Shown here: positions 3,380 through 16,094 of the stretch, piece after piece
How positions within the stretch are numbered: the stretch's first letter is position 1
How the letters are laid out: each line of letters begins with the position of its first letter
Origin: Roseivirga sp.
GTDB lineage: Bacteria > Bacteroidota > Bacteroidia > Cytophagales > Cyclobacteriaceae
DNA: 64,000 nucleotides
Reading direction: 5' to 3'
Assembly: GCA_018402485.1 (NCBI GenBank)
Contig: JAGYIY010000001.1
Coordinates: forward strand, 1,458,001-1,522,000
Notes under the pieces: model-generated
Told to the model about the DNA's origin: nothing
The model's input: only the letters and a program-made list of their open reading frames with translations
The model's database searches: none
Translations under genes and position numbers: made by a program

Positions 3380-4042
3380 TTAAGCTTTCAAATGCGATTC
3401 CGCAACAATCATATCTTCGGGGGTAGTAATTTTCAAGTTTCGGTAGTCTCCGGCAATCAAATGGATATGATGGCCCGCAGCCTCCAATACCGAAGCATCA
3501 TCCGTAAAACCCGGTTGATAAGGCTGTTCGAAAGCTTTTTGAATGATCGGAAGTTGAAAAGTTTGTGGTGTTTGTATCAACCGGAATTGGCCTCTTTCTA
3601 GGGCAGAGGAATGGTCGCCATTGATTTGACGAATGGAATCTTTTAAGGGGACAGCGGTAATGGCATTGCCCATTTCCTGAGCGATAGCAAAGCTTTGGCG
3701 AATGATTTCGCGGCTAATCATTGGGCGCACACCATCATGAATAGCGACTAAGCCATCATCAGCACTCAGGTTTTGTAAACCATTTTGTACTGTGTGAAAA
3801 CGAGTTTCTCCACCCGGAAATACTTGATGAGGAACATCAAAATCATACTGCTCTACAAGTTCTTGCCAATGTTGGATTTGGTGTTTTGGTAAGGCGAGGT
3901 GAACTTGAATGTCATCGAAATCAAAAGCCCTTAGGGTGTGCATTAAAACGGGGAGATTGTTGAGGGGTAAAAATTGTTTGGGCGTATCGGACTGCATGCG
4001 TTGTCCGGATCCTCCTGCCACGATAAGCGCAAATTTCTGCAT
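3380..4042 (-). CDS. ispD: 2-C-methyl-D-erythritol 4-phosphate cytidylyltransferase
   Basis: 220 aa, close to the usual 220-240. IspD joins CTP to methylerythritol phosphate in the MEP isoprenoid pathway. Seen: the nucleotide-binding N-terminus IVAGGSGQRM, PKQFLPL near residue 24, HDGVRPMIS near 101, a QTPQTFQ segment near 158 and TDDASVLEAAG near 181. The first ~110 bp of this gene occur again at 14626-14734 beside queA, so the gene now lies at the left edge of a 10.6-kb island that probably cut an older queA-ispD arrangement. Its present promoter must therefore lie in island DNA (4043 onward). Confidence 0.95.
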   Translation of the reverse strand: MQKFALIVAGGSGQRMQSDTPKQFLPLNNLPVLMHTLRAFDFDDIQVHLALPKHQIQHWQELVEQYDFDVPHQVFPGGETRFHTVQNGLQNLSADDGLVAIHDGVRPMISREIIRQSFAIAQEMGNAITAVPLKDSIRQINGDHSSALERGQFRLIQTPQTFQLPIIQKAFEQPYQPGFTDDASVLEAAGHHIHLIAGDYRNLKITTPEDMIVAESHLKA

Positions 4043-4474
4043 GGCCGAAAATACAAAAAAAAGGACTTGAGGATAGTAGTTGGTTGAAATTACTTCTATC
4101 TAAGATAAAGGGTCAACAAGCATTGTATGGATAAAATGTGTGGTAAGGGGTATCGGAGGTATTTAAAAGCGATAAAGATAAAAAGCTATGCTTAGGCCTC
4201 CCTTCCTGTGAAAAATTGACAAAAAGTAAAAAAATTAGCTGCGTGTAAACAAATGTGGTACAAATTATTTAAAAGAGGTAATCTTTTAATTTCTCAAAAA
4301 TCTAATATGCAAATATATTATGTTTATTCCACTTATATTATGTACATTTAGCCTAAGTAGAATGAGTATAATGAACATGTGGTTTAAAGTTATGTTCCAG
4401 AGCATCATACAGCCTAAAAGCATTTGCCCAAGCACCATTGACTTACTATAGGTATTACATATAAGGGAAGAACA
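4043..4474. other. Intergenic left end of the island, no gene seen
   Basis: 432 bp, AT-rich, between the divergent ispD and the small HTH gene. It should hold the ispD promoter and the start signals for the HTH gene. I see no convincing ORF, tRNA, integrase relic or long repeat here. A stretch around 4343-4350 resembles a weak TAnnTTTG -7 element. Confidence 0.6.
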
Positions 4475-4705
4475 ATGAGAGAAAAAATCCAACGCATGGA
4501 AAGGCTAGATGCCATGATCAGAAGAAAGGGCACGGGAAGCCCGGAAGAATGTGCCAAAAGATTTGGTATTTGTAAACGGCACTTGCACCGTTTAATAGAT
4601 GAAATGAGGAGCCATGGAGGCCCAATTGTTTACGATCCAACCATAGGTTCCTATGTATATACTGAAAACGTAAAGTTTTCTTTTGGCTTTATACCTATAG
4701 AATGA
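4475..4705 (+). CDS. Small helix-turn-helix DNA-binding protein
   Basis: 76 aa. Residues about 8-50 read as a DeoR/HTH_11-like helix-turn-helix (LDAMIRRKGTGSPEECAKRF, then GICKRHLHRLIDEMRSHG as the recognition region), followed by a short wing-like tail (PIVYDPTIGSYVYTE, then FSFGFIPIE). Proteins of this shape are frequent beside small secreted-peptide or bacteriocin-like genes in Bacteroidota (from memory of the family). A purine-rich AGGGAAGAAC lies just before the ATG. A truncated copy lies at 9072-9258. It is the only intact regulator candidate in the island and may read the palindrome in the downstream leader. Regulation is inferred. Confidence 0.75.
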   Translation: MREKIQRMERLDAMIRRKGTGSPEECAKRFGICKRHLHRLIDEMRSHGGPIVYDPTIGSYVYTENVKFSFGFIPIE

Positions 4706-4788
4706 TTGATATGTGTGATTACAATGTCATTTCAGAAAAAAATAAAAAAAATATTACTCGGTGACATATTTACAGCACTGGTAAATAT

Positions 4789-4846
4789 TATACTTGCAAG
4801 TAAGAAGCTAATAAAAAGTAATAGGTAAGCATTGGCTTTGAGTTTG
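4789..4846 (+). promoter_or_regulatory. 58-bp repeated leader, copy A, with palindrome TACTTGCAAGTA
   Basis: Nearly the same 58 bp occur at 8223-8280 and 9342-9399. Each copy lies 13-24 bp before the start codon of a small exported-protein gene. A perfect 12-bp palindrome (TACTTGCAAGTA, 4791-4802) opens the element, and its right part TAAGCATTGGCTTTGAGTTT is invariant. The central AATAAAAAGTAATAG is the least conserved part. Probably an operator plus promoter or 5' leader. The binding protein is unknown; the HTH protein just upstream is the obvious candidate. Confidence 0.65.
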
Positions 4847-4870
4847 AATTACAAATAAAACAAAAGAAAA

Positions 4871-5614
4871 ATGAAAAAATTACATATTATATTAGTATTA
4901 TGTATGACTTATTCTTGTCAGGAAGTAAATCCTGAAGTCAATATTTATGAGCATGGTCTAAACACAGAAGCCAATAGACAGCTTGTAAAGGGTTTTGCAA
5001 AGAAGAAATCTGATATTTTGGAGCAAAGAGCAATACTTACCTCTAAATTTTTAAATGATAGACTTAATAAGGGGTATTCGAGTTCCGATGGTTTTATAGA
5101 TCAAGATCAATTTCAATTAGATTTACTAAAAGAATATGAAAAGTGTTCCAACTGCTCTTTAGTGTCCAAGGATCTTATGATTCCTTTCTTGAAGAAACTC
5201 TTTAAGGTGCATAATAGTTATTTGGTCGAAACTATTCAGGAATTTGAGGAGGAAGTTTTGATAAGTTCATTGGATAATCAGGCTAAGTCTAATCTACTTT
5301 TTCTAACGTATGCATTTAATATAAGTGCCGAAATCGGTATTAACCAAGAACAGGAATTTGATGGAAGTAGCGGTTTTTGGGATTGTTTCGGAGAAAAAGT
5401 TGGGAGTAATGCTGGAGAGGGGATGGCATATGGATTTTTAGGAGGTTGTCTTTTGGGAGGAATTGCTGGAGGTACAGGAGGAACTGTTTTACTTCCTGGT
5501 GTAGGCACTGTTACAGGAGCAGTTGCTGGATGTATCTATGGTGGTGCAGGCGGAGCAGTTGTTGGAGGTGCCTTAGGAGTTGTCAAGACAGGTTTGCAGT
5601 GTCTTTTCAGTTGA
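4871..5614 (+). CDS. Exported lipoprotein with glycine-zipper C-terminal domain (LP1)
   Basis: 247 aa, family not recognised. The N-terminus is a short signal peptide with a weak lipobox (MTYSC, Cys16). Residues 20-165 are polar and helical, with a KCSNC pair at 92/95. Residues 171-247 form a glycine-rich hydrophobic domain (GFLGGCLLGGIAGGTGG and following) with glycine-zipper spacing, bounded by Cys172 and Cys244 and with further Cys at 193 and 221. This recalls membrane-inserting bacteriocin or lysis-type domains, but no known family could be assigned. It is preceded by leader copy A and followed after 32 bp by a two-TM protein. LP2 at 9424 has the same plan. Function unknown. Confidence 0.75.
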   Translation: MKKLHIILVLCMTYSCQEVNPEVNIYEHGLNTEANRQLVKGFAKKKSDILEQRAILTSKFLNDRLNKGYSSSDGFIDQDQFQLDLLKEYEKCSNCSLVSKDLMIPFLKKLFKVHNSYLVETIQEFEEEVLISSLDNQAKSNLLFLTYAFNISAEIGINQEQEFDGSSGFWDCFGEKVGSNAGEGMAYGFLGGCLLGGIAGGTGGTVLLPGVGTVTGAVAGCIYGGAGGAVVGGALGVVKTGLQCLFS

Positions 5615-5646
5615 TTAATAGTTGTTGTATATAAATATATATTATT

Positions 5647-5853
5647 ATGTCAAAAAAAATATTTAAAGTACTTAGAATGTCTTTATTTATAAACTTATAT
5701 TTATTATTTTACTTAGGGATTTCTAGTAATTATAAAAATACATTAAATAATTTGAAGTCAATTGATTTTTATATTGATATATTTGTTAGCTTATTGTTTG
5801 CATTCATTATGCTGCGACTATATCAAAGGAAACTCAAGAGTATTAAAGGATAG
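5647..5853 (+). CDS. Small two-TM membrane protein paired with LP1
   Basis: 68 aa with two hydrophobic segments (about residues 12-27 and 43-58), a basic start (MSKKIFKVLR) and a basic tail (RLYQRKLKSIKG), as in a small inner-membrane hairpin protein. Not recognised as a family. It follows the glycine-zipper lipoprotein by 32 bp and ends 6 bp before an IS3 fragment. The same order (lipoprotein, then a short two-TM protein) recurs at 9424-10268, which supports a real gene and a functional pair, for example an effector and its protector. That role is inference only. Confidence 0.6.
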   Translation: MSKKIFKVLRMSLFINLYLLFYLGISSNYKNTLNNLKSIDFYIDIFVSLLFAFIMLRLYQRKLKSIKG

Positions 5854-5858
5854 TATAA

Positions 5859-6058
5859 TACTCCCCTAAACTGAGACCAAAGGTTAAGTCAAAAAAAATA
5901 AATTTCACCCTTTAAAGAAGCGAAAAAGACGTAAATATTCTCCAGCCTTTAAGGCTAAAATAGCCGTTGAAGCAATCATAAATCAGCATACACTTGCTGA
6001 ATTATCAAAGAAATATGAGGTGAGCTCAGATTTCATTTCCAAGTGGGAGGGGAAAGGT
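5859..6058 (+). mobile_element. IS3-family left-end fragment, copy 1
   Basis: 200 bp starting with an IS-end-like TACTCCCCTAAACTGAGACC and running into an OrfA-type transposase N-terminus (RRKYSPAFKAKIAVEAI, then TLAELSKKYEVSSDFISKWE) before stopping at GGGGAAAGGT. A second copy at 7929-8130 begins and ends at the same bases. No OrfB, no catalytic DDE domain and no right end are present, so neither copy can move by itself. The fragment ends 32 bp before the small peptide gene at 6091 and may have brought part of its upstream region. Confidence 0.8.
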
Positions 6059-6090
6059 GCAAAAGTAGTAGTTAAACAAAAGTGATAATT

Positions 6091-6312
6091 ATGAAAAAAG
6101 CATATAAATTATTTTTATGTGGAACCATTGTTTTTGGTTCATTCATTGCATGGAATACTATTGCAACAGCTCAAGAATATGAGCTTTGCCCAGGCAGAGG
6201 TGAAAGATGTGCAAGGGTAGAGAAGGATATAAAAGTATTCGGTGCGAAGTTAGCGACTATTCCAATTTGGTTAAAGAAAACCAAAGGTGGGCCTGGATTA
6301 ATCATTAAGTAA
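6091..6312 (+). CDS. Small exported Cys-containing peptide (peptide 1)
   Basis: 73 aa using the ATG at 6091; a GTG 9 bp upstream is less likely. It has a signal peptide (KKAYKLFLCGTIVFGSFIAW, then NTIATAQ) followed by CPGRGERC and a basic, glycine-rich tail ending GGPGLIIK. Size, signal and a Cys pair just after the cleavage area resemble the NVEALA-type exported peptides of Bacteroidota, although the NVEALA word itself is absent. It is followed at once by a perfect-looking hairpin (6323-6352), then a beta-propeller gene and a MauE-like gene, the usual companions of such peptides. Function unknown. Confidence 0.6.
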   Translation: MKKAYKLFLCGTIVFGSFIAWNTIATAQEYELCPGRGERCARVEKDIKVFGAKLATIPIWLKKTKGGPGLIIK

Positions 6313-6322
6313 TCATTAACAT

Positions 6323-6352
6323 ATACAGTGTTCCGATTTCGGAATACTGTAT
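6323..6352 (+). terminator. Hairpin between peptide 1 and the beta-propeller gene
   Basis: ATACAGT-G-TTCCGA-TT-TCGGAA-T-ACTGTAT forms a 13-bp stem with one bulge pair and a 2-nt loop. There is no clean U-run, so partial termination or transcript stabilisation of the peptide mRNA is as likely as full stop. Similar hairpins follow peptides 2 and 3. Confidence 0.65.
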
Positions 6353-6362
6353 TATTTGAAAA

Positions 6363-7463
6363 ATGAGAAATATTATTATCTTATCTGTGTTGGTTATAGC
6401 TTCTTTTATGGTGGTATTAGCCATGAAATGGAGGATGTTTGATTATTCTACCACCTCAAACAATAGTGCTAAAACCACTGAGTCAGCCCGGAGTGATAGC
6501 GTCATCAATTCTGCCATAATGTCGAATGAACTTCCAGAATTCAGAGATTTTATGTTTAAACTCAAAGAAGAAAAAGACATTATTTTTGAGGAAAACGGAA
6601 TTTGGAAATGGAAGAAAATAGATAATCAGTTATGGATAGTTGGCTCCAGTGACCAAAGCTTTTACGCAATCGATGACAATGGTAAAGTCTTGAGAAAATG
6701 GGGGAGATTAGGAGATGCTCCTTGGGAAAATAGAGAAATATCATCATTCGATATAAAAAATGAAAAAATATACATAGTAGATAGAGACAAATCAGAATTT
6801 AAAATAATAGAAAACGAAAAGGAATTAGTTCTTTATGAGAAACCGCAATTGCCATTCTGGTCAGGTACTTTTTTAACAGAAAACTTGATAACGTCTGTCT
6901 CTGAAAATGGAAAGACTTTTGAATTTCTCACATTGGATTTAGAAAGTGGTAAAACCACGAAAATTGATATACCTAACCTTCTTGGTTATGATGAAGCATA
7001 TCCAAATATGAACATAGCTTATGAAGGTTACTTTGTATCAAATGGACAAGGTTATTGCGCTTATGTATGTTTAAAAGCCGGAACCTTTTTTGTCATCGAA
7101 AGTTCTGATATAAAAGCACGACCTTATAACACTATAGACAAAACTGATCCTCCTGAGATTTCTGTAAGAAAAATGGGAGCAATAAACTTTTTTATTAGAG
7201 AGCCTGATCATAACGTGAATTATTCGGCTTGTATCGATAAAAATAATCTATACATTATTTCAACTATACTTTTTGAGAAATCAGACAATCTTGTTCTAGA
7301 CATTTACAATTTGAAAAATGGCAATTATATCGGAAGTGCACAAATCCCAACATTTAGCGATCAATATCCGGTAGACATAACTAAATCAATAGATGGCAAC
7401 GATCTTTATGTCCTATATGAAAATCAGGATATCAAAAAATACACAATGGTAAAAGATGAATAA
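6363..7463 (+). CDS. 6-bladed beta-propeller protein, membrane-anchored or secreted
   Basis: 366 aa. One N-terminal hydrophobic segment (about residues 3-21) serves as signal or anchor; no lipobox is seen. The body has repeated beta-propeller blades typical of the BF3164/DUF5128-type proteins of Bacteroidota: WIVGSSDQSFYAIDDNGKVL near 90, GRLGDAPWENREISSFDI near 113, KIYIVDRDKSEFKI, and NLYIISTILFEKSDN near 302. It starts 10 bp after the hairpin behind peptide 1, and its stop overlaps the next start by 8 bp, so it is translationally coupled to the MauE-like gene. A role in exported-peptide handling is inferred from context. Confidence 0.8.
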   Translation: MRNIIILSVLVIASFMVVLAMKWRMFDYSTTSNNSAKTTESARSDSVINSAIMSNELPEFRDFMFKLKEEKDIIFEENGIWKWKKIDNQLWIVGSSDQSFYAIDDNGKVLRKWGRLGDAPWENREISSFDIKNEKIYIVDRDKSEFKIIENEKELVLYEKPQLPFWSGTFLTENLITSVSENGKTFEFLTLDLESGKTTKIDIPNLLGYDEAYPNMNIAYEGYFVSNGQGYCAYVCLKAGTFFVIESSDIKARPYNTIDKTDPPEISVRKMGAINFFIREPDHNVNYSACIDKNNLYIISTILFEKSDNLVLDIYNLKNGNYIGSAQIPTFSDQYPVDITKSIDGNDLYVLYENQDIKKYTMVKDE

Positions 7464-7887
7464 GTCCGCATTGAACAAGAGCCAACTCATATCAACTTCT
7501 ATCGATCTAGGGTTTATTTTTCTTTTTTCATACTCATCCCTAGTGAAGTTCCTTAGTTTGGACTCCTTCGCTGAAAAATTATTGAAATCACCACTAATTG
7601 GGCTAGATCTTTTAAACTTATTTGTCTATTCAGTTCCATTTATTGAGGCTATGGTGGTTATTTTATTAGCAATAAAATCGTCTAGAAAATTTGGTCGCTA
7701 TCTAATGTTTTTTCTTTTGTCAAGCTTTACCGTTTATCTTATAAACTTAAACAATTTAAGTGGTTTCGTTCCATGTTCGTGCGGAGGACTTTTTGAAACA
7801 TTGACATTTGACCAGCATGTTACGATCAACATTGTGTTTTTAGTACTTGCCGGTATTAACATTTTCCTTAACAGAAGTAAGCCTTAA
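7456..7887 (+). CDS. MauE/DoxX-like redox-associated membrane protein
   Basis: 143 aa with four hydrophobic segments (about 12-30, 51-72, 79-97, 122-138) and a PCSCGG motif (Cys107 and Cys109) in the loop before the last helix. This is the layout of MauE/methylamine-utilisation-type proteins, thought to pass electrons for disulphide formation or reduction outside the cytoplasm. Its start overlaps the propeller stop by 8 bp. With the Cys-containing peptides and the CxxC lipoprotein at 13992 it points to disulphide chemistry in the envelope. Exact partner unknown. Confidence 0.8.
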   Translation: MNKSALNKSQLISTSIDLGFIFLFSYSSLVKFLSLDSFAEKLLKSPLIGLDLLNLFVYSVPFIEAMVVILLAIKSSRKFGRYLMFFLLSSFTVYLINLNNLSGFVPCSCGGLFETLTFDQHVTINIVFLVLAGINIFLNRSKP

Positions 7888-7928
7888 TCTGCACTTTGAT
7901 GGCTCTTTTTAATAATGAGCGCGCTTTG

Positions 7929-8130
7929 TACTCCCCTAAACTGAGACCAAAGGTTAAGTCAAAAACGATTTAAATTTAACCATTTAAAGAAGCGAACAAG
8001 ACGTAAATTTTCTCCAGCCTTTAAGGCTAAAATAGCCGTTGAAGCAATCAGAAATCAGCATACACTTGCTGAATTATCAAAGAAATATGAAGTGAGCTCA
8101 GATTTCATTTCCAAGTGGGAGGGGAAAGGT
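7929..8130 (+). mobile_element. IS3-family left-end fragment, copy 2
   Basis: 202 bp, closely similar to 5859-6058 and with the same two end points (TACTCCCCTAAACTGAGACC at the left, GGGGAAAGGT at the right). It differs in a short stretch after the terminus (AAAACGATTTAAATTT), so it is not the product of a very recent copy event. It encodes only the N-terminal ~40 residues of an OrfA-like transposase. Flanking sequences differ from those of copy 1, so the two may have spread as a small non-autonomous unit. Confidence 0.8.
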
Positions 8131-8222
8131 ATAAATAGATAAGATTTGAGATGTTTGAAGGATAAAATCAAAATAAATTTATTAAAAATGTGGCAGTGAC
8201 ATTTTATGATACAACCTCACCT

Positions 8223-8280
8223 TATACTTGCAAGTAAGAAGCTAATACAAGGTCCTGGGTAAGCATTGGCTTTGAGTTTG
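8223..8280 (+). promoter_or_regulatory. 58-bp repeated leader, copy B, with palindrome TACTTGCAAGTA
   Basis: Second copy of the leader at 4789-4846, with the palindrome at 8225-8236 and the same TAAGCATTGGCTTTGAGTTT right part. It ends 13 bp before the ATG of peptide 2. Sequence upstream of the palindrome is not shared with copies A and C, which marks the palindrome as the true left edge of the conserved element. Confidence 0.65.
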
Positions 8281-8293
8281 TTTATTAATAAAA

Positions 8294-8579
8294 ATGAAAA
8301 TGAAAAATTTAATAGGGTTGGTATTGGTTTTATTTTTGGTCGTGGGTTTAAGTATATACCAAGAAGAGGATATTTACGCAGAGAGTTTGTGTCCTGAGTG
8401 CATTGAGGGAAGAAGAGAACACATAAGAGGTTGTTTGTCTTTGTGGGGTAACTTCTCTTCTGGGGAGCCTGGGGGGGCTAGCTACAGGTCATAAAAAAGT
8501 TTGTAGAAAGGATAAACTTAACCCTTGCCGAAAGGATTGGTTAGCAGGGTGCGAATCGGCTATTTCAAATGTAGAATAA
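8294..8579 (+). pseudogene. Small exported Cys-rich peptide (peptide 2), frameshifted in a G7 run
   Basis: The ATG frame gives 66 aa: a signal (LIGLVLVLFLVVGLSIY), then ESLCPECIEGRREHIRGC, then a stop at 8494. With one G fewer in the run of seven at 8471-8477 the frame continues to 8579 (about 94 aa) and adds four Cys (KKVCRKDKLNPCRKD, WLAGCESAI region). That continuation aligns with the relic peptide 3 at 10299-10460 (GNFSVGES, KKACRRDKDYNTCDKDC), so it is the ancestral reading frame. The gene is either broken or switched by G-run slippage. It is preceded by leader B and followed by a hairpin. Confidence 0.7.
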
Positions 8580-8585
8580 AGATGT

Positions 8586-8626
8586 GAGGGTTCTGCTAAT
8601 ATGATTATTGGAACAGTAGAACCCTC
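8586..8626 (+). terminator. Hairpin after peptide 2
   Basis: GAGGGTTCT and AGAACCCTC form a 9-bp perfect stem around a 23-nt loop, 6 bp after the restored stop of peptide 2 and 19 bp before the SUMF1-like copy 1. No U-run follows directly. Its position matches the hairpins behind peptides 1 and 3. Confidence 0.6.
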
Positions 8627-8645
8627 CCATTAAACTTTTGTTGTT

Positions 8646-9128
8646 ATGATGACTCTAATACTCTTATTTATTATCCTACAAATGCCTGCTTTAATCGATA
8701 CTTCCATGGTATGGGTAGAAGGCAATGGTGAAATCCAATCTTTTTACATGGATAAGTACGAAGTGACCATGGCGGAATTCCAGCGTTTTGTTGCAGCAAC
8801 CGGCTACAAGACCTCTTCAGAAATTTTGGATTCTGGCAAAGTGTATAATCCTTATTACAGAAAGGTAAAAGGGGTGAATTGGAGACATGATCATAGAGGC
8901 AATAAAATAGCATCAGATCGGTATGCTGTGCTTCCAGTGACCAGAATTTCCCTCAGAGATGCCCAGGCTTATGCAAAATGGGTTGGGAAACGTGTGCCAA
9001 CCAAACAAGAATGGCTCTATGCTGCTCGTGGTGGAATAAAAAGTAAATCCTACCGGTATCTGGGGGGGATAGGGCACGGGAAGCCGACAAAGCCCAGAAG
9101 AATGTGCCAAAAGGTTTGGTATTTATAA
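8646..9128 (+). pseudogene. SUMF1/FGE-like protein copy 1, 3'-truncated
   Basis: Residues 20-139 match the SUMF1-like copies at 10518, 11286 and 12054 almost word for word (SMVWVEGNGEIQSFYMDKYE, GKRVPTKQEWLYAARGG). After the codons for YRYLGG the match ends inside a G7 run and the DNA switches to a copy of the small HTH gene (9072 onward), so the last ~80 residues, including the GLYDMGGN and GMRLVKD parts, are lost and 21 unrelated residues end the ORF. The N-terminal 19 residues (MMTLILLFIILQMPALIDT) also differ from the other copies. Probably non-functional. Confidence 0.85.
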
Positions 9129-9258
9129 ACGGCACTTGCACCGTTTAATAGATGAAATGAGGAGCCATGGAGGCCCAATTGTTTACGATCCAACCATAGG
9201 TTCCTATGTATATACTGAAAACGTAAAGTTTTCTTTTGGCTTTATACCTATAGAATGA
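9072..9258 (+). pseudogene. Truncated copy of the small HTH gene
   Basis: From GGGCACGGGAAGCC on, this stretch matches the HTH gene at 4528-4705 through its stop codon, with a 9-bp insertion after GTGS (adding RQS) and a Cys-to-Tyr change in FGIYKRHL. The first 18 codons are missing, and the same frame has a TAG immediately upstream, so it cannot be made as a full protein. The match continues past the stop into leader copy C and the ATG of LP2, so the whole block 4528-4875 was copied here. Confidence 0.85.
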
Positions 9259-9341
9259 TTGATATGTGTGATTACAATGTCATTTCAGAAAAAAATAAAA
9301 AAAATATTACTCGGTGACATATTTACAGCACTGGTAAATAT

Positions 9342-9399
9342 TATACTTGCAAGTAAGAAGTTGATACAAAGTCCTAGGTAAGCATTGGCTTTGAGTTTG
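9342..9399 (+). promoter_or_regulatory. 58-bp repeated leader, copy C, with palindrome TACTTGCAAGTA
   Basis: Third copy of the leader, palindrome at 9344-9355, ending 24 bp before the LP2 start. Unlike copy B it shares more than 200 bp of upstream sequence with copy A because the whole HTH-leader block was duplicated. The core differs from copies A and B at only a few positions (AAGTTGATACAAAGTCCTAG). Confidence 0.65.
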
Positions 9400-9423
9400 A
9401 ATTTTAATTAAAACAAAAGAAAA

Positions 9424-10074
9424 ATGAAAAGGGTAATTAAAAAATCATGGAGAGGGTTAACGGGTTTGTTTGTTCTGAAAATTGGAGTAATTTGTCTTTT
9501 ACTTACTATTCAGGCATGTAGTGATGCTATAGAGCCTAAGATTAACTTTGATCAGACTGCAATTGATGAATATGAGAGTTTTATAAACCGAGGGGTTTTT
9601 AATTCATCTTTTGGTAACTCTGCGAATTTAGAAGTTGAGGAAATGTCTGAAAGCCAAGCCAAAGAAGTACTTTCAGATTTCACAGATCAATCTATGAAAT
9701 TTTTGATTGGTATTGGATTTGATAAGAGTACCATTGATTCTGAACTTGGTGGCGTTAATAGTCCTAATACGGCGGCCATAGCTTATATCATTTTAGAAGA
9801 AATCAAAAAAGATAAATCTTCAGCATCATACTTTGATTTGAATAGTTTAATGATGAATCAAAGTTATGCTCAAGGAGATGTTCTAGATTGTGCCTTAGAA
9901 GCCTTTGGGTTTGCGGCAGTTGGTTATATTTTTCAATATGGTATTGAAGAGGCTATTGAACATTATGGAAAAAAGGGGCTGATTAAAGTACTTGGGAAAG
10001 CTGCGGGAAAAACCTTGGGATGGGTTGGTTTAGCCATAGCAGCTTATGAGTTTACAGATTGTATGACAAAATAG
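9424..10074 (+). CDS. Exported lipoprotein with Cys-bounded hydrophobic C-terminal domain (LP2)
   Basis: 216 aa, family not recognised. A long basic N-region (MKRVIKKSWRGL) leads to a hydrophobic stretch and the lipobox TIQAC (Cys32). Residues 35-145 are polar and mostly helical; residues 150-213 form a hydrophobic, glycine/alanine-rich domain (GFAAVGYIF, KAAGKTLGWVGLAIAAYEF) bounded by Cys156 and Cys213. LP1 (4871) has the same overall plan with little direct identity. It lies behind leader C and 5 bp before a two-TM gene. It may be a membrane-active effector or a structural envelope protein; function unknown. Confidence 0.75.
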   Translation: MKRVIKKSWRGLTGLFVLKIGVICLLLTIQACSDAIEPKINFDQTAIDEYESFINRGVFNSSFGNSANLEVEEMSESQAKEVLSDFTDQSMKFLIGIGFDKSTIDSELGGVNSPNTAAIAYIILEEIKKDKSSASYFDLNSLMMNQSYAQGDVLDCALEAFGFAAVGYIFQYGIEEAIEHYGKKGLIKVLGKAAGKTLGWVGLAIAAYEFTDCMTK

Positions 10075-10079
10075 ATATT

Positions 10080-10268
10080 ATGAATATATATATATATATT
10101 ATAATAAGCTCAGTATTAATAGTAGAATTATTAAATATTATATTTAATAATAAAATAAATAAATATATAGTAAAATATAAAATGATAAAATTAATACTTA
10201 TACATACATTATTTGGTATAATAAGTATTTTAACATCATATTATATATTTACAAATATTAAAATATAA
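10080..10268 (+). CDS. Very AT-rich small two-TM membrane protein paired with LP2
   Basis: 62 aa from the ATG at 10080, 5 bp after the LP2 stop; an in-frame TTG at 10059 inside LP2 is a less likely start. There are two hydrophobic segments (about residues 4-22 and 36-58) with a basic loop (NNKINKYIVKYK) between them. Only about one base in ten is G or C, and most isoleucines use ATA, far from the codon use of neighbours. The position matches the two-TM gene at 5647 behind LP1, which argues for a real gene. Immunity or partner role is inference. Confidence 0.5.
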   Translation: MNIYIYIIISSVLIVELLNIIFNNKINKYIVKYKMIKLILIHTLFGIISILTSYYIFTNIKI

Positions 10269-10298
10269 TTTATGTTATTATACTAGTTAGGCGAGTGA

Positions 10299-10460
10299 TT
10301 GAATCACATAAGTAGTTGTTTATCATTAAAGGGTAATTTTTCTGTAGGGGAGTCTAGAGGCTTTCTTGCAATTGGATCCAAAAAGGCTTGTAGACGTGAC
10401 AAGGATTATAACACATGTGATAAGGATTGCTTAACGCGATGTCAATCTAGCTTATTATAA
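10299..10460 (+). pseudogene. Relic of a small exported Cys-rich peptide (peptide 3), 5' end lost
   Basis: An open stretch after a TGA at 10296 encodes 53 codons with no start that could yield a signal peptide. It aligns with peptide 2 in its restored frame: CLSLKGNFSVGES against CLSLWGNFSSGEP, then KKACRRDKDYNTCDKDC against KKVCRKDKLNPCRKD, then LTRCQSS. Cys spacing is conserved, with one extra Cys. Upstream codons are full of stops, so the signal-peptide half has decayed. A strong hairpin follows at 10468, as behind the other two peptide genes. Confidence 0.65.
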
Positions 10461-10467
10461 TTTTAAT

Positions 10468-10496
10468 AGACCCTACAATATTGATTTGTAGGGTCT
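10468..10496 (+). terminator. Hairpin after peptide 3 relic
   Basis: AGACCCTACAA and TTGTAGGGTCT form an 11-bp perfect stem with a 7-nt loop, followed by TTTC. The strongest of the three peptide-associated hairpins; it would end or reduce transcription 21 bp before SUMF1-like copy 2. Confidence 0.75.
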
Positions 10497-10517
10497 TTCA
10501 TTGAAAATACAGAAACT

Positions 10518-11231
10518 ATGCTCAATTTATTTGCTTTACTCTTAGCCCTCGGAACTGTACAAGACAGTGACAGTTCCATGGTATGGGTAGAAGGCAATGG
10601 TGAAATCTAATCTTTTTACATGGATAAGTACGAAGTGACCATGGCGGAATTCCAGCGTTTTGTTGCAGCAACCGGCTACAAGACCTCTTCAGAAAGGCTT
10701 GATTCTGGCAAAGTGTATAATCCTTATTACAGAAAGGTAAAAGGGGTGAATTGGAGACATGATCATAGAGGCAATAAAATAGCATCAGATCGGTATGCTG
10801 TGCTTCCAGTGACCAGAATTTCCCTCAGAGATGCCCAGGCTTATGCAAAATGGGTTGGGAAACGTGTGCCAACCAAACAAGAATGGCTCTATGCTGCTCA
10901 TGGTGGAATAAAAAGTAAATCCTACCGGTATGTTGGTGGAAATAGAGCTCGTCAGGTAGGATGGTTTGATGGTAATTCATATGAAATCTTAATGCCCATT
11001 GGTCAGAAAATGCCTAACGAGCTAGGCTTATATGATATGGGCGGTAACATTGACGAAATGGCCATTGACAAAGAGAATAATCGCTTTTGGGGAATGGGAG
11101 GCAGTTTTTTTACGGACAAGGATTATTTTGAAATGGACTATATAGCAAAAGGATCTTATAGTACCATGAACTATATCGATGATTCGGGCAGTCCATTGAC
11201 AGGCATGCGGTTGGTGAAAGATGCAAAGTAG
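10518..11231 (+). pseudogene. SUMF1/FGE-like protein copy 2, nonsense mutation at codon 31
   Basis: Same length (237 codons) and frame as the intact copies 3 and 4, but codon 31 is TAA (10608-10610) where they have CAA (Gln). Everything before it matches (MLNLFALLLALGTVQDSDSS), and everything after is open and highly similar to copy 3. Restart at the ATG at 10620 would give 203 residues without the signal peptide, so an exported product is unlikely. It is the first unit of three exact 768-bp tandem repeats. Confidence 0.85.
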
Positions 11232-11285
11232 TATGCTGCTTCCTTGAGATTGATTCAAAAAACGATTTAATAAAACATAAGCGCT

Positions 11286-11999
11286 ATGCTCAATTTATTT
11301 GTTTTAATCTTAGTTATTGGAACTGTACAAGACAGTGATAGTTCCATGGTATGGGTAGAAGGCAATGGTGAAATCCAGTCTTTTTACATGGATAAGTATG
11401 AGGTGACCATGGCGGAATTCCAGCGTTTTGTAGCAGCAACCGGCTATAAGACCTCTACAGAAATTTTGGATTCTGGCAAAGTATATAATCCGTATTACAG
11501 CAAGGTAAAAGGGGTGAATTGGCGTCATGATCATAGAGGCAATAAAATAGCAGCAGACCGGTATGCTGTGCTTCCAGTGACCAGAATTTCCCTCAGAGAT
11601 GCCCAGGCTTATGCGAAATGGGTCGGTAAACGTGTGCCAACCAAACAAGAATGGCTCTATGCTACTCGTGGTGGAATAAAAAGTAAATACTACCGGTATG
11701 TTGGTGGAAATAGAGCTCGTCAGGTAGGATGGTTTGATGGTAATTCATATGAAATCTTAATGCCCATTGGTCAGAAAATGCCTAACGAGTTAGGCTTATA
11801 TGATTTGGGAGGTAACATTGGGGAAATTGCATCAGATTTAAGTAATGATAAGTTCTGGAGTATGGGTGGTAGTTTCTTTAAGGATAAAGACTATTTTGAA
11901 ATGGACTATATAGCAAAAGGATCTTATAGTACCATGAACTATATTGACGAACCGGGCAGCCCATTGACAGGCATGCGGTTGGTAAAAGATGCAAAGTAG
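11286..11999 (+). CDS. SUMF1/FGE-sulfatase-domain exported protein, copy 3 (intact)
   Basis: 237 aa. A short hydrophobic start (LNLFVLILVIGTVQ) is the likely signal. The rest is an FGE/SUMF1-type domain: MVWVEGNGEIQSFYMDKYEV, the LRDAQAYAKWVGKRVPTKQE block near 105, NELGLYDLGGN near 174, SMGGSFF near 194 and the terminal GMRLVKDAK. There is no cysteine at all, so the two catalytic Cys of true formylglycine-generating enzymes are absent and sulfatase activation is excluded. Non-catalytic members of this fold serve as binding or structural proteins. The flanking 54-bp spacer is repeated unchanged before copy 4. Confidence 0.85.
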   Translation: MLNLFVLILVIGTVQDSDSSMVWVEGNGEIQSFYMDKYEVTMAEFQRFVAATGYKTSTEILDSGKVYNPYYSKVKGVNWRHDHRGNKIAADRYAVLPVTRISLRDAQAYAKWVGKRVPTKQEWLYATRGGIKSKYYRYVGGNRARQVGWFDGNSYEILMPIGQKMPNELGLYDLGGNIGEIASDLSNDKFWSMGGSFFKDKDYFEMDYIAKGSYSTMNYIDEPGSPLTGMRLVKDAK

Positions 12000-12053
12000 T
12001 ATGCTGCTTCCTTGAGATTGATTCAAAAAACGATTTAATAAAACATAAGCGCT

Positions 12054-12767
12054 ATGCTCAATTTATTTGCTTTATTCTTGGTTTTAGGAACTACACAAGA
12101 CAGTGACACTTCCATGGTATGGGTAGAAGGCAATGGTGAAATCCAATCTTTTTACATGGATAAGTATGAGGTGACCATGGCGGAATTCCAGCGTTTTGTA
12201 GCAGCAACCGGCTATAAGACCTCTACAGAAATTTTGGATTCTGGCAAAGTATATAATCCGTATTACAGAAAGGTAAAAGGTGTGAATTGGAGACATGACG
12301 TTTATGGTAGGGAAATACCACAAGAACGATATAATGAGTTGCCAGTTAGTAGGGTTTCACTTAAAGATGCTCAGGCCTATGCCCAGTGGGTGGGTAAGCG
12401 TATCCCCACCAAAGAAGAGTGGATGTATGCTGCTCATGGCGGAATAAAAAGTAAATCCTACCGGTATGTCGGTGGAAATAGAGCTCGTCAGGTAGGATGG
12501 TTTGATGGTAATTCAAGAGAAACCTTGATGCCTATCGGTCAGAAAACACCCAATGAACTCGGTATTTATGACCTTGGGGGAAACATTGAGGAGGTGGCTA
12601 CTGACTTCACGGATAAAAAAATATGGAGTATGGGAGGTAGCTTCTTTACTGACAAAGATTATTTTGAGTTAGATTATTTAGAGAACGGTTCTTACAGACA
12701 TATAGGAGGGGCAACTATGTCAGAGGGACCATTAACGGGAATAAGACTGGTCAAAGATGCAAAGTGA
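12054..12767 (+). CDS. SUMF1/FGE-sulfatase-domain exported protein, copy 4 (intact, mosaic)
   Basis: 237 aa, same architecture and also without cysteine. It is nearly identical to copy 3 from the start to about 12298 and again around 12437-12520, but clearly different between (VYGREIPQERYNELPVSRVS instead of HRGNKIAADRYAVLPVTRIS) and in the last third (GSYRHIGGATMSEGP). This patchwork suggests gene conversion between tandem copies or copying from an older paralogue. It is followed after 43 bp by a beta-propeller lipoprotein gene, probably in one transcript. Function unknown. Confidence 0.85.
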   Translation: MLNLFALFLVLGTTQDSDTSMVWVEGNGEIQSFYMDKYEVTMAEFQRFVAATGYKTSTEILDSGKVYNPYYRKVKGVNWRHDVYGREIPQERYNELPVSRVSLKDAQAYAQWVGKRIPTKEEWMYAAHGGIKSKSYRYVGGNRARQVGWFDGNSRETLMPIGQKTPNELGIYDLGGNIEEVATDFTDKKIWSMGGSFFTDKDYFELDYLENGSYRHIGGATMSEGPLTGIRLVKDAK

Positions 12768-12810
12768 AGCATCACTGCATTGAATTTGACTCATACATAA
12801 TGCATTAAAA

Positions 12811-13995
12811 ATGATAAAATATCATCACATCAGGTTTGTAATGCTGGCTTCTTTGACGGCATTCCTTGTGCTGGGTTGTTCAGGCGACCAAGTAACTCGT
12901 GTAACCCACAACATAAAATCCATTAGCGTAAACCCTGCCAATGCCAAACAATTACCTTTAAGTGACATTGCCGACTCGGTTAGTTATGTGCTTTTAGACA
13001 CACCTGAAGAGCTGGCCATCGGGCAAATCGATCGAGTACTTTTATCCAACAATACGTTTTTTGTCCTAGACCGCGAAATAGCCTCTGCCCTTTATGTATT
13101 CGACCGCAAGGGGAAATATCTTTTTGATATTCAAGAAGGTATTGGAGGGCCTGGTGAAGTACTGGAATTCACAGATTTTGATGTGAGTAAACAGAATGAG
13201 GAATTGTACATCTTAGACAATGAACGCATGGACATAAAGGTGTTTGATTTTTCTGGCGCGTTTGTACGTAGCATTCGTTTGCCTTTTTTTGCAGCTGCTC
13301 TGAATGTCCTTAAGGATGAAATAGCTGTATTTCGAAACAACCAATATAATGAGGCAGATGAGTGGAGAAACCATCAAGTGGTGGTGCTATCGAAAGAGGG
13401 TGCCATACTTCGGTCATTCCTACCTCTAAGTTTGGAAACAAATTACTTCTCCTATCACGACTCATTTCGACCCTTACAGACTACTGATGCGGGCTGGATA
13501 TTTAGCCAAGCCTTGAATGATTCGATTTATGAAATTTCGGGAAACACCCTTACCGGGAAATATAAGATTGACTTTGGAGACCGATCCCTGTCTCAAATTG
13601 AAGGGGGCTTTTTCGGAATCAATGATTTCTTGCAATCTGAGCAAAGGATGAAAAGCCATTACTTGATGGGCGATACTTTTGAGACCTCCGATTACCTCAT
13701 GTCCCTGTTCTTTGCCGGCAAAACCTATCAATACCTGTTTTATGATAAACAGACGGGACAGCCCCAAGTGGTGAGCAAAATAGAAAATGACATCAATGCG
13801 GTTCCCTTTATGCATATTAAGTTTGCCAATGATGAATTATTGCTGGCGGATTTACCTACTGAATTACTTTTGATGATGGATGAGCAAATGCCAGCCGCAG
13901 AAAAAAGTAATACCATAAAGCAATTGCTGAGTGATCCCGTCTTCGAAAAAGAAAACCCAATTCTGCTGCTGGCTTATCTTAAACAAAGAAAATGA
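12811..13995 (+). CDS. 6-bladed beta-propeller lipoprotein
   Basis: 394 aa. A signal peptide with lipobox LVLGC (Cys23) is followed by a DUF5128/BF3164-type propeller: LPLSDIADSVSYVLLDTPEE near 50, FFVLDREIASALYVFDRKGK near 90, GGPGEVLEFTDFDVS near 115, ELYILDNERMDIKVFDFSG near 135. Later blades are weaker. The stop overlaps the start of the CxxC lipoprotein at 13992 by 4 bp, so the two are coupled. Similar propellers lie at 6363 and 62889. Probably in the outer membrane or periplasm; its ligand is not known. Confidence 0.85.
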   Translation: MIKYHHIRFVMLASLTAFLVLGCSGDQVTRVTHNIKSISVNPANAKQLPLSDIADSVSYVLLDTPEELAIGQIDRVLLSNNTFFVLDREIASALYVFDRKGKYLFDIQEGIGGPGEVLEFTDFDVSKQNEELYILDNERMDIKVFDFSGAFVRSIRLPFFAAALNVLKDEIAVFRNNQYNEADEWRNHQVVVLSKEGAILRSFLPLSLETNYFSYHDSFRPLQTTDAGWIFSQALNDSIYEISGNTLTGKYKIDFGDRSLSQIEGGFFGINDFLQSEQRMKSHYLMGDTFETSDYLMSLFFAGKTYQYLFYDKQTGQPQVVSKIENDINAVPFMHIKFANDELLLADLPTELLLMMDEQMPAAEKSNTIKQLLSDPVFEKENPILLLAYLKQRK

Positions 13996-14558
13996 GTAGG
14001 TTGAGAATAGGTGCTATTGTGGGTATGCTTGTCTTTTTACATGCTTGTAACAATGAGCCTAACGAACATTCAGGTCAGCGCGAGATGGATTATTTGCAAT
14101 CTCAATTCAATCAATTGGTTGAAATAGATCGCTCAAGATTTTATTATGAAGATTCGATATTTCCCGATATCCGTTTGAATGATACATTGAACCTATCCGA
14201 TTTAGGGAGTGAATACCTATACCTTAGGTTATCTGAGCTTCATTGCCAAGAATGCATTAAGGACATGGCTTTATTTATCAATGATCATTTTCGAGAACAT
14301 AAAGCGAGGGTGGTTATTCTGGGACAATTCCAGAGTGAGCGAAAAATGAGCATCTTCCTGAGAAGATTGAACTTGTTGGAATGTATTGCTTTTTTGGTAC
14401 CAGAAATAACAGGGCACGATTTGGAAAGGACTCAAGCTCCTTATGCTTTTCTTTTAAAAGCAGAAAATAGATTGGATAATCTTTGGTTACCACATTATTC
14501 ACTTCCTGAATTGTCTGATGCGTATCTTCAGGCAATGGCGGCTAAGTTGATCAAGTAA
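13992..14558 (+). CDS. Thioredoxin-like lipoprotein with CxxC motif
   Basis: 188 aa. Lipobox FLHAC (Cys19). A thioredoxin-fold core is suggested by YLYLRLSELHCQECIKDMAL with the CQEC pair at residues 85/88, then RVVILGQFQ and an APYAFLL strand near 155 that would hold the cis-proline (AP). Such lipoproteins accompany 6-bladed propellers and exported peptides in many Bacteroidota. It is coupled to the propeller gene by a 4-bp overlap. The likely role is thiol-disulphide exchange in the periplasm, possibly on the Cys-containing peptides of the island; direct evidence is lacking. Confidence 0.75.
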   Translation: MSRLRIGAIVGMLVFLHACNNEPNEHSGQREMDYLQSQFNQLVEIDRSRFYYEDSIFPDIRLNDTLNLSDLGSEYLYLRLSELHCQECIKDMALFINDHFREHKARVVILGQFQSERKMSIFLRRLNLLECIAFLVPEITGHDLERTQAPYAFLLKAENRLDNLWLPHYSLPELSDAYLQAMAAKLIK

Positions 14559-14625
14559 TTGTACAATGAGTTTATTGAAGAAGAGTAGCCATTAAACTAG
14601 GGGTGTGTAAAAAAATAAGCACCAA

Positions 14626-14734
14626 AGGTGTGCATTAACACGGGAAGATCGTTGAGGGGTAAAAATGGTTTGGGCGTATCGGACTGCATGCGTTGTCCGG
14701 ATCCTCTTGCCACTACGAGTGCAAATTTCTGCAT
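14626..14734 (-). pseudogene. ispD 5'-end relic at the right edge of the island
   Basis: About 110 bp read on the minus strand as the first ~36 codons of ispD (MQKFALVVARGSGQRMQSDT and on), with roughly 10% base differences from the real ispD start at 3934-4042. The nucleotide-binding AGGSG has become ARGSG, and the match stops after VLMHT, so it makes no enzyme. It lies directly after the queA terminator and probably marks where ispD stood before the island arrived. Confidence 0.85.
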
Positions 14735-14748
14735 GACCGATAATACAA

Positions 14749-14781
14749 AAAAAGCCTTTACCCAATGGGCAAAGGCTTTTT
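14749..14781. terminator. Bidirectional terminator downstream of queA
   Basis: AAAAAGCCTTT-A-CCC-AAT-GGG-C-AAAGGCTTTTT is a 14-bp stem with one mismatch and T-runs on both strands. It would stop queA transcription on the minus strand, 20 bp after its stop codon, and anything leaving the island on the plus strand. Confidence 0.9.
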
Positions 14782-14801
14782 ATATCTTATTGGGTGGCTG
14801 T

Positions 14802-15848
14802 CTAAATGATCAGCAAAGCATCTCCATAACTGAAGAATCTATATTTTTCCTTAATGGCCACCTGATAGGCATTCATCAATGTTTTGTAGCCTGCAAAAGC
14901 TGCTGCATGCATGAGCAATGTAGATTCCGGTAAATGAAAATTGGTCACCAATGCATTGGTAATTTTAAAATCGTAAGGAGGGAAGATGAATTTATCCGTC
15001 CACGCTTCATTGGCTTTCAAACGATCGTGTGCATTGACTGATGACTCCAAAGCACGCATAGAAGTTGTACCAATAGATACCACACGTTTTTTGGCGTCCA
15101 ACGCCCTGTTCACCAAGGCTTCCGTTTCCGGGCCAATATTGTAATGCTCAGAGTCCATTTTGTGCTTGGTTAAATCTTCCACATCCACCGGACGGAAAGT
15201 GCCAAGCCCAATGTGCAGGGTAACCGGTGTTACGTCCACGCCTTTGATTTCTAAACGTTTTAGCAAATGCGGAGTGAAATGAAGACCCGCTACAGGAGCA
15301 GCCACTGCGCCTACATTTTTAGCAAAAATGGTTTGAAACCTTTCACGGTCTTCAGGTTCGGTAGGGCGATCGATCACGCGTGGCAGTGGCGTTTCGCCTA
15401 AAGCGTCTACTGTTTTGGTAAACTCTTCATCGTTTCCATCGAACAAAAAGCGGATGGTTCTACCACGGGAGGTGGTGTTGTCAATGACCTCAGCCACCAA
15501 TTCGCCATCACCAAAATAAAGTTTATTGCCTACACGAATTTTGCGGGCCGGATCGACCAACACATCCCAAAGCTTCATCTCTTTGTTCAGTTCTCTCAAC
15601 AAGAACACTTCAATTTGTGCGCCCGTCTTTTCCTTCTGACCATAGAGTCTGGCAGGAAAGACCTTGGTGTCATTGCTCACCATTACATCGCCTTCGTCAA
15701 AATAATCTACGATGTCTTTGAATTCTTTGTGCTCGATTTCGCCCGTTTCGCGGTGCAAAACCATTAACCTGGATTCGTCTCTGTTTTCTTTTGGGTACTT
15801 GGCAATTCGGTCTTGAGGTAACTCAAATTTGAATGCCGACAATTTCAT
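14802..15848 (-). CDS. queA: tRNA preQ1(34) S-adenosylmethionine ribosyltransferase-isomerase
   Basis: 348 aa using ATG at 15848; a TTG five codons upstream is possible. QueA transfers and isomerises the ribosyl part of SAM to preQ1 in tRNA, giving epoxyqueuosine. Seen: [18 protein letters not shown] at the start, [24 protein letters not shown], the [14 protein letters not shown] block near 190, [10 protein letters not shown] and [12 protein letters not shown] near 260, and [18 protein letters not shown] near 310. It ends in a strong terminator beside the ispD relic, consistent with an ancestral queA-ispD neighbourhood. Confidence 0.95.
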
Positions 15849-16094
15849 TTTTTCGATGCTCAAAGCCTTGTCGTTTTAAATAGCTGGCAAAGATAAAAAT
15901 AAAAGACCGTGCTTCATAATAATGCGGTCATATTTCGAGAAAACCGCTATCAACTATTTTTTGGTCTCCCACTCACCCCCGATAATTTCCACTCGTTTGC
16001 TGAATTGTTTTTTTTAGCAATAATCACTTCCATACTGTTTACATTTTATCATGCTTTACGTTCCTAATTAAAACGTGTAATAAGTTCACCCTTC

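Follow-up and report, generated by a model that had tools for sequence, protein, structure and literature searches.

A leader-linked array of secreted-cargo genes between ispD and queA in Roseivirga and its possible relation to bacteriocin-type loci

Gene content and insertion site

The 10.7-kb island between ispD and queA belongs to the window (the whole 64,000-nucleotide stretch of Roseivirga sp. DNA analysed here) and contains every gene type listed in an earlier note on this DNA: an HTH gene, lipoprotein pairs, exported peptides, propellers, a MauE-like protein, a CxxC lipoprotein and four SUMF1-like genes (Table 1). The ends given there, 4043..14734, correspond to two ispD start codons. 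Much of this gene set is decayed. A second HTH copy, a repeated leader, the IS3 remnants and a partial ispD copy had been overlooked. The description of the island as AT-rich holds at 4–8 and 9–11 kb (GC 33–35%), but the right third is hardly AT-rich, because GC over 11–15 kb is 38–41% compared with about 41% in the surroundings. A Pfam scan of the 16 island ORFs revealed no integrase or transfer genes, only the IS3-type remnants.

Table 1. Features of the ispD–queA island and its boundaries, in order of position
Feature	Position	Strand	Basis or remark
ispD, left boundary	3380..4042	(-)	PF01128 175.7 bits
Small HTH protein, putative regulator	4475..4705	(+)	Only sub-cut-off Pfam HTH matches; C39-linked in relatives
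Leader copy 1, subtype A, before lipoprotein 1	4770..4870	(+)	Sequence comparison
Lipoprotein 1, Gly-rich hydrophobic Cys-bounded end	4871..5614	(+)	ORF inspection
Two-TM partner 1	5647..5853	(+)	Crude TM scan
IS3-type transposase remnant 1	5859..6063	(+)	PF01527 27.3 bits, cut-off 24.1
Exported Cys peptide, intact	6091..6312	(+)	ORF inspection, Cys count
Propeller-like exported protein	6363..7463	(+)	PF17170 19.2 bits, below 22.9 cut-off
MauE-like membrane protein	7456..7887	(+)	PF07291 81.6 bits
IS3-type transposase remnant 2	7929..8135	(+)	95% DNA identity to remnant 1
Leader copy 2, subtype B, before broken peptide	8200..8299	(+)	Sequence comparison
Exported Cys peptide, frame broken at G7 run	8294..8494	(+)	Sequence inspection
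Truncated SUMF1-like gene running into HTH fragment	8646..9128	(+)	PF03781 103.8 bits
Second HTH copy, 5'-truncated, fused to first SUMF1 copy	9090..9258	(+)	Sequence comparison
Leader copy 3, subtype A, before lipoprotein 2	9324..9423	(+)	Sequence comparison
Lipoprotein 2, C-x57-C helical end	9424..10074	(+)	Sequence comparison
Two-TM partner 2	10080..10268	(+)	Crude TM scan
Cys-peptide remnant, start lost	10299..10460	(+)	Sequence inspection
SUMF1-like gene, one internal TAA	10516..11231	(+)	PF03781 match
SUMF1-like exported protein, intact, Cys-free	11286..11999	(+)	PF03781 match
SUMF1-like exported protein, intact, Cys-free	12054..12767	(+)	66% orthologue, same site, G006
Propeller lipoprotein	12811..13995	(+)	PF17170 158.9 bits
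Lipobox + CQEC (CxxC) lipoprotein, thioredoxin-like by motif only	13992..14558	(+)	No Pfam match
Decayed partial copy of ispD start, island's right end	14610..14753	(-)	88% over 144 nt; old junction
queA, right boundary	14802..15863	(-)	PF02547 444.8 bits

The ispD–queA site is empty in 12 of the 17 Roseivirga genomes with queA (G015, without a true queA match, stands outside this count). In two others (G006 and G007), it harbors HlyD and a C39-peptidase ABC transporter together with GG-leader peptides and an HTH gene of the island's family, which, judged by gene content, is a bacteriocin-type locus layout.

The HTH family and the shared leader

A C39 exporter lies within 10 kb of 28 out of 45 copies of the HTH family, compared with 0.45 expected, the rows not being independent (in G038, one exporter is surrounded by four copies), and the linkage is present in 21 of 29 genomes. 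The other 17 copies have no C39 within this distance, and several of them adjoin genes without any sign of secreted peptides. Within Roseivirga, all six HTH copies with a C39 exporter adjoin GG-type peptides (the motif is GS in G002), and all five intact copies without one adjoin lipoprotein or Cys-peptide cargo. A double-glycine tail ends 13 of 25 C39-adjacent HTH proteins versus one of 20 others (three further G038 copies, all less than 10 kb from a C39 match, were left out and three from the genome of the window were added); copies in the lineage without C39 lack this tail. No C39 exporter was found in the genome of the window itself (0 PF03412 matches at E <= 0.001), whose assembly is 84.6% complete and could miss one. 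The link to C39/GG-leader peptide loci is the main clue to the identity of the island, and it had escaped the earlier note. In a PHROGs search with six island proteins, the best match was that of the HTH protein to phrog_13105 (unknown function; E 0.0012). The dyad TGnnATnnnATnnCA follows the HTH gene within 220 nt in nine of 56 downstream segments (class-level locus L132 not counted) versus 12 of 2672 control segments; this pattern was written after 20 segments had been viewed, and these contain all nine matches, the other 36 having none. As a candidate operator, the dyad would at best be confined to near relatives.

Seven unrelated cargo genes in two islands of the genome (three lipoproteins and four Cys peptides) share a leader of about 90–100 nt, which ties the two cargo types together. 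The copies are 74–94% identical (mean 82%) before the start codon, while identity past it (50%) is at the level of shuffled leaders (52%), so that the boundary between leader and cargo is sharp. A model built from the seven copies (matches reported at E < 1e-4) detected the leader in the gap between HTH gene and cargo of G007, before a GG peptide (3.7e-8), and of G014, before a Cys peptide (5.6e-6), as well as before a Cys peptide at another HTH locus of the same genome as the window (3.7e-5) and as an orphan copy there (9.8e-9). Outside this genome, under stricter filters, the leader was matched at only two of eight Roseivirga HTH copies. The lipoprotein pairs L088, L089 and L090 have neither a leader match nor an HTH gene detected nearby, and the leader-model scan gave no match at the peptide cassettes L105, L106 and L107.

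A random stack, in which ispD–queA is a hot spot gathering unrelated insertions and leader copies were spread within small mobile remnants, appears quite improbable as an explanation of the whole. The MauE trio does lie between IS3 remnants, such remnants are also located upstream of leader copies (7929 in the window; 11312 and 13351 in the second island, L006), SUMF1 is fused to HTH in both islands, the ends of ispD and fabD are duplicated, and the SUMF1-propeller combination is known from the ispD–queA site only. Nevertheless, all seven leader copies extend to the start of an exported cargo (with codon ATC at L006 13167), and the leader recurs behind HTH genes in two other species. The stack of unrelated insertions that had been named as the refuting case applies in part to the IS3-flanked MauE trio, and perhaps to SUMF1.

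Two other identities of the leader were considered and rejected. None of 16 predicted base pairs showed changes on both sides, and the leader was treated as plain sequence rather than as an RNA element; an Rfam scan of 3900–15000 gave no match. A 40-aa ORF in subtype A (4706–4828) was discarded as a gene because the subtypes differ by an indel inside it.

Lipoprotein pairs, Cys-peptide cassettes and the SUMF1-like genes

The lipoprotein family ends in Cys-x53-57-Cys, and in all nine homologous loci examined (two weak further matches, G045 and G315, were left out) a small hydrophobic membrane protein of 59–102 aa lies directly behind the lipoprotein gene, with at least two TM segments in eight cases and one in G010 by a crude scan. 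This constant pairing fits an effector–immunity pair, in which the lipoprotein may be toxic and its partner protective. A single-sequence model of lipoprotein 1 (mean pLDDT 49) contains a helical hairpin at residues 167–245 with values of about 75–84, the rest being unreliable. A fold search with the domain model gave four matches with a best E of 6.3, which is meaningless, and the best PDB match of the lipoprotein profile (E 0.46) was not significant. Kinship of this domain to GG peptides was rejected, as no sequence match was found among 5489 other small locus ORFs, GG peptides included.

That exported Cys peptides recur beside propellers and redox-type genes, as the earlier note had proposed, was borne out by eight such cassettes at six sites of the genome and by further peptide-propeller cassettes in G014, G051 and G090. 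Four of the eight cassettes match a named propeller profile over the cut-off, one matches DUF4221, one stays below the cut-off and two have no profile match. Propellers without peptides occur at L103, L104 and L108, so a propeller alone is no marker of the system. An NCBIfam scan added nothing beyond noise and a 31-bit match of the right propeller, weak against a cut-off of 350. By inspection and a crude script, the N-termini of the window's peptides and lipoproteins are of the Sec type or carry a lipobox, and no double-glycine leader was found on them. The number of Cys residues is even in 14 of 15 mature peptides under a crude cut, a count without the broken peptides of the window and without those of L106 and L109 (2 and 4 Cys, respectively, beyond residue 25). 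The only odd one, the third of L007, turns even when the cut is moved four residues downstream. These Cys pairs may be closed by the MauE or CxxC proteins; a seven-sequence CxxC profile matched best, not significantly, the thiol-disulfide oxidoreductase 2lja in the PDB (E 0.17). NVEALA genes (PF14055) lie near propellers, and the peptides resemble this family in being small and Sec-exported. The NVEALA-type label nevertheless has to be dropped: PF14055 exceeds its cut-off in none of 59 genomes, that of the window included, and neither the peptide at 6091 nor four peptides from other loci of the genome match it at E <= 1.

The peptides differ between sites (at E <= 0.01, only those within L007 and those within L107 resemble each other) and adjoin a propeller, in many cases along with a CxxC protein. 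This arrangement would suit binding as well as protection, and speaks for a reading in which the same regulated cassettes carry surface lipoproteins and peptides for signaling or self-recognition, with the propellers as receptors, rather than toxins. We consider such a role possible but rather unlikely, since the association of the HTH gene with C39/GG loci and the strict pairing of lipoprotein and TM protein are better suited to effector and immunity functions; this objection is weak, because GG peptides can also be signals.

The three longer SUMF1-like copies match the FGE/SUMF1 family (PF03781) at 121–127 bits, far over the cut-off of 23.3, and have PDB sequence matches to SUMF1. FGE/SUMF1 catalysis uses a Cys pair, which is absent here, both intact copies containing no Cys. 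The only close orthologue among 39 genomes (66%) lies at the ispD–queA site of G006, and SUMF1 as a general partner of the system finds no support. For the right third alone, the chances appear evenly balanced that SUMF1-propeller-CxxC (11.2–14.6 kb) represents a separate surface-protein operon, sharing the site and not the function. Its GC content is near background, no leader match precedes it, and in G006 the SUMF1 orthologue and a similar propeller lie beside queA, downstream of the GG-peptide locus. Conversely, the second island likewise contains fused pieces of a SUMF1 gene and an HTH gene (L006 7420–7971, 88% to the window), implying that SUMF1 DNA has moved with the cassettes.

A possible Sec-dependent form of the GG-leader loci

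With modest confidence, we read the island as a stack of exchangeable secreted-cargo cassettes from a bacteriocin-type locus family, namely a Sec-dependent variant of the GG-leader peptide loci. The small HTH protein comes first; next is the leader, constant and about 100 nt long, ahead of cargo genes that can be swapped behind it. In many relatives, the HTH gene lies beside GG-leader peptides and a C39-peptidase ABC exporter; in this lineage, the cargo is, by its N-termini, Sec-routed and of two types: lipoproteins with a Cys-bounded hydrophobic helical end, each accompanied by a small membrane protein, and small Cys peptides, which a propeller and redox-type helpers accompany. The HTH protein would act on the leader and set cargo expression, the cargo would cross the inner membrane by Sec, MauE or CxxC proteins would help to close its Cys pairs, and the lipoprotein or peptide would act at the surface on neighboring cells, the producer being protected by the small membrane protein. 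HTH control, disulfides, surface action, antagonism and immunity are all proposed here from gene content and sequence.

A bolder version, unlikely as a whole, assumes one regulator-leader module serving three export routes (GG/C39; Sec with disulfide peptides and propellers; lipoproteins whose hydrophobic helical warhead is closed by Cys), with cargo swapped at the start codon. Because the HTH protein of the C39 version often ends in a double-glycine tail, the C39 peptidase could dock to it or cut it, coupling export to cargo expression; the GG-tailed regulator thus raises a simple question of export-coupled control. If the Sec-dependent variant exists, mining for GG leaders and C39 in search of Bacteroidota peptide bacteriocins overlooks a Sec-routed branch, which would be reachable through the small HTH gene and the leader. 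A constant leader with swapped cargo would also provide a handle on new effector-partner pairs.

Bacteroidetocin loci, in the parts of the account by Coyne et al. 2019 (PMC6671954) used here, combine genes for a small Cys peptide, a TM protein and a thiol oxidoreductase in one short Bacteroidota locus. The island resembles that account in having genes for a Cys peptide and a TM protein close together, with the MauE-like protein and the CQEC lipoprotein as candidate thiol oxidoreductases, and differs from it in its Sec-routed cargo, lipoproteins included, in one constant leader for unrelated cargo and in an HTH gene placed first. Unlike those loci, moreover, it lacks a GG leader, and a search for a C39 transporter found none. 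Members of this HTH family occur at C39/GG loci of the bacteroidetocin's general kind in relatives, and the leader is shared with one of these loci (G007), which does not imply kinship of their peptides to bacteroidetocins. The island also differs from graspetide and radical-SAM peptide loci, as no ATP-grasp or radical SAM gene was seen in it. Loci in relatives that we take to be of these Bacteroidota types carry the same HTH family upstream of the precursor region.

The putative HTH regulator and C39 exporters

ORF reading and profile searches of the window upheld the gene list that the earlier note had drawn up for the island, the ~10.7 kb between ispD and queA. We lean towards regarding this island as a partly decayed, Sec-dependent variant of GG-leader peptide loci, in which one regulator-leader module would serve swappable secreted cargo. 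The nearest described system is the bacteroidetocin loci (PMC6671954), and a Bacteroidales RiPP survey notes a single HTH gene within a cluster (PMC10352776). In the literature searched, mostly non-subscription journals, no title described the island's arrangement, and full-text searches of that scope found no paper on NVEALA or on DUF5128; a full-text search for a double-glycine motif, C39 peptidase and transcriptional regulator in Bacteroidota also found none.

The HTH gene, a small putative regulator, is also found in loci of Roseivirga thermotolerans (G016) and R. echinicomitans (G014), both of the window's genus. Matches were present in 30 of 99 genomes, the source assembly included, and in 12 of 148 further genomes sampled evenly from the class. 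A C39-peptidase match lay within 10 kb of 28 of the 45 copies outside the source assembly (0.45 expected from C39 density; 21 of 29 counted per genome), and in 19 of these 28 it lay 2.0-2.3 kb upstream, the length of a transporter gene. Neighbours included HlyD-like proteins, GG-leader peptides, CPBP-type and other small membrane proteins, and some proteins that we take to be graspetide or radical-SAM maturases. The other 17 copies had no C39 match within 10 kb, and several of them had no evident peptide. Within the genus the split was clean: copies with C39 carried GG-type peptides, whereas those without it carried a Cys peptide or lipoprotein. A profile search of the source assembly (2.57 Mb, 84.6% complete) returned no C39 match.

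A C-terminal extension with a GG-leader-like GG motif (EINGG, EIKGG, KIHGG and similar) was present in 13 of 25 HTH proteins adjoining C39 versus 1 of 20 without it (Fisher 0.0009, an optimistic value because related sequences are not independent). At class level, three of eight readable copies were tailed (L123, L125 and L126), adjoining GG or graspetide-like genes; the HTH of L124 adjoins GG peptides yet has no tail. A tailed HTH may be a DNA-binding protein carrying a putative C39 cleavage site.

Features of the island and of related loci (L, extracted loci; G, other genomes; L006, L007, L105, L106, L107 and L171 belong to the source assembly)
Feature	Window	Other loci or genomes
HTH gene	4475-4705	
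Lipoprotein 1	4871-5614	
Lipoprotein 2	9424-10074	
Leader copies, by cargo start	4871, 8294, 9424	L006 15322, 13167, 11128, 7437
Orphan leader copy		L171 rc 3886-3996 (C1:966005-966115)
Peptide-propeller cassettes	6091	L006 (three); L007 (three peptides); L105; L106; L107 (three peptides)
HTH copies with GG-leader-like tail, most beside C39 exporters		L042, L043, L045, L046, L048, L057, L059, L062, L063, L064, L066, L069, L071, L079, L123, L125, L126
Same-genus HTH copies with C39 and GG-type peptides		G003, G006, G007 (two), G016, G002 (motif reads GS)
Same-genus HTH copies without C39, with Cys peptide or lipoprotein		source assembly (three intact), G001, G014
Duplicated ispD start	3918-4061, 14610-14753	
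Duplicated core-gene end (99 nt)		L006 5090-5188, 7969-8067
Second island of the source assembly		L006 (C1:20-31 kb)
IS3-type transposase remnants	5859-6063, 7929-8135	L089 16817-17015; L105 8587-8759; L006 11312-11509, 13351-13498

A leader shared by different cargo

A blastn comparison of the two islands of the source assembly revealed one stretch of 90-180 nt 5' of cargo genes in both. The 100 nt preceding the start codon were 74-94% identical among the seven copies (mean 82.4, 21 pairs), versus 45-56% (mean 50.3) for the same pairs over the 100 nt from codon 5 onward, which is the level of shuffled leaders (51.6); peptide 8294 was anchored at its second ATG. Behind these copies stand three lipoproteins and four Cys peptides, the peptides being unlike one another. 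The lipoprotein at L006 13167 (minus strand) has ATC at the start-codon position, ATG being found in the other copies; its frame is open.

Searching 59 genomes with a model built on the seven copies (sequence only) gave four additional matches at E < 1e-4. The match in G007 lies between the HTH gene and a GG-leader peptide, and those in G014 and L007 lie between the HTH gene and a Cys peptide; the orphan copy has neither HTH nor intact cargo behind it. The leader is thus a part of HTH loci in three species or more, and it precedes all three cargo types (lipoprotein with small TM protein, Sec-exported Cys peptide with propeller, and GG-leader peptide). The model search detected the leader at only two of the eight HTH copies in same-genus genomes other than the source assembly, and not at the other six, which slightly lowers our confidence in the overall reading. 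From the remaining 15 listed matches, all weak (E 0.002-0.05), no inference was drawn.

Cargo and neighbouring genes

Homologues of lipoprotein 2 were found in the source assembly (two more), G001 (two), G010, G261, G361 and G224; these eight loci and the window copy make up the nine examined, with weak matches in G045 and G315 outside them. In all nine, the next gene after the lipoprotein encodes a hydrophobic protein (59-102 aa) with two to three TM segments by crude scan but one in G010, and a Cys pair 53-57 residues apart lies near the lipoprotein C-terminus. Lipoprotein 1 has the same layout, yet does not match the lipoprotein profile. The HTH gene stands 5' of the pair only at the window's first pair and G001a, the window's second pair sitting behind a truncated HTH. 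In single-sequence models, the C-terminal domain of lipoprotein 2 is helical (pLDDT 71) and lipoprotein 1 ends in a long helical hairpin (pLDDT ~75-84) inside an otherwise poor model; a fold search of the PDB with the lipoprotein domain model gave no meaningful match. Some GG-leader peptides of relatives (L070, L123) resemble the Cys-closed hydrophobic end of the lipoprotein in layout, and a search for sequence kinship between the two found none. Antagonism is the likeliest use of the cargo, the small TM protein putatively protecting the producer; the main rival is that the cargo serve signalling instead.

The source assembly has at least eight peptide-propeller cassettes at six sites, counted over all but two of its PF17170 matches. 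The propeller exceeded the cut-off for PF17170 or PF15869 in four (one in L006, and L105, L106 and L107), was backed by DUF4221 in L007 and weakly by profile in the window, and for two L006 cassettes was assigned solely from its size and position. A CxxC protein follows in one L006 cassette, L007, L105 and L106, MauE is found in the window cassette and DUF1573 in two of L006; no redox-type neighbour was seen in L107. Peptides from different sites are dissimilar in sequence, and the Cys count is even in 14 of 15 mature peptides under a crude cleavage rule. The start Met and two Cys are the only invariant columns among the CxxC proteins, for which motif and place suggest a thioredoxin fold. Tandem propeller-lipoprotein arrays without peptides, many ending in WVKFK or similar, occur in L103 and L104 (reading strand; two same-genus genomes) and represent a further expansion of that propeller family.

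Both intact SUMF1-like proteins are Cys-free and match the FGE family. A search of 39 genomes gave a single close relative (66%), which occupies the ispD-queA site in G006 next to queA and a propeller of similar sequence; an HTH/C39/GG locus lies upstream of them. We regard the SUMF1-propeller-CxxC block as most plausibly a site neighbour, although the presence of a SUMF1::HTH fragment in L006 demonstrates that SUMF1 DNA has travelled with cassettes.

Insertion site and decay

A true queA match is present in 17 same-genus genomes besides the source assembly. The site is empty in 12 of them, where the position of the ispD start, counted from the final sense codon of queA, is 64-80; in G004 and G014 it is 487-496, with one additional small gene between. 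G006 and G007 carry accessory loci of ~9.0 and ~9.1 kb at this site, and G002 has no ispD within 1500 nt of queA. On this scale the window's decayed ispD start falls at 71 and therefore marks the old junction, the full ispD lying beyond the insert. The 99-nt duplicate in L006 (93% identity), which bounds a cassette, is a comparable scar; the core gene whose end it repeats is presumably fabD, as recognised from its sequence.

Of the SUMF1 copies, one is cut short and continues into an HTH fragment, and another has an internal stop. Peptide 10299 has lost its start, and the frame of peptide 8294 is broken at a G7/C7 run at 8471. Only one other such run exists in the 64 kb, at the SUMF1::HTH junction (9062), and both may be slippage sites or assembly errors. 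Remnants of IS3-type transposases (~120-200 nt) recur near cassettes, those at window 7929 and in L006 lying immediately upstream of leader copies.
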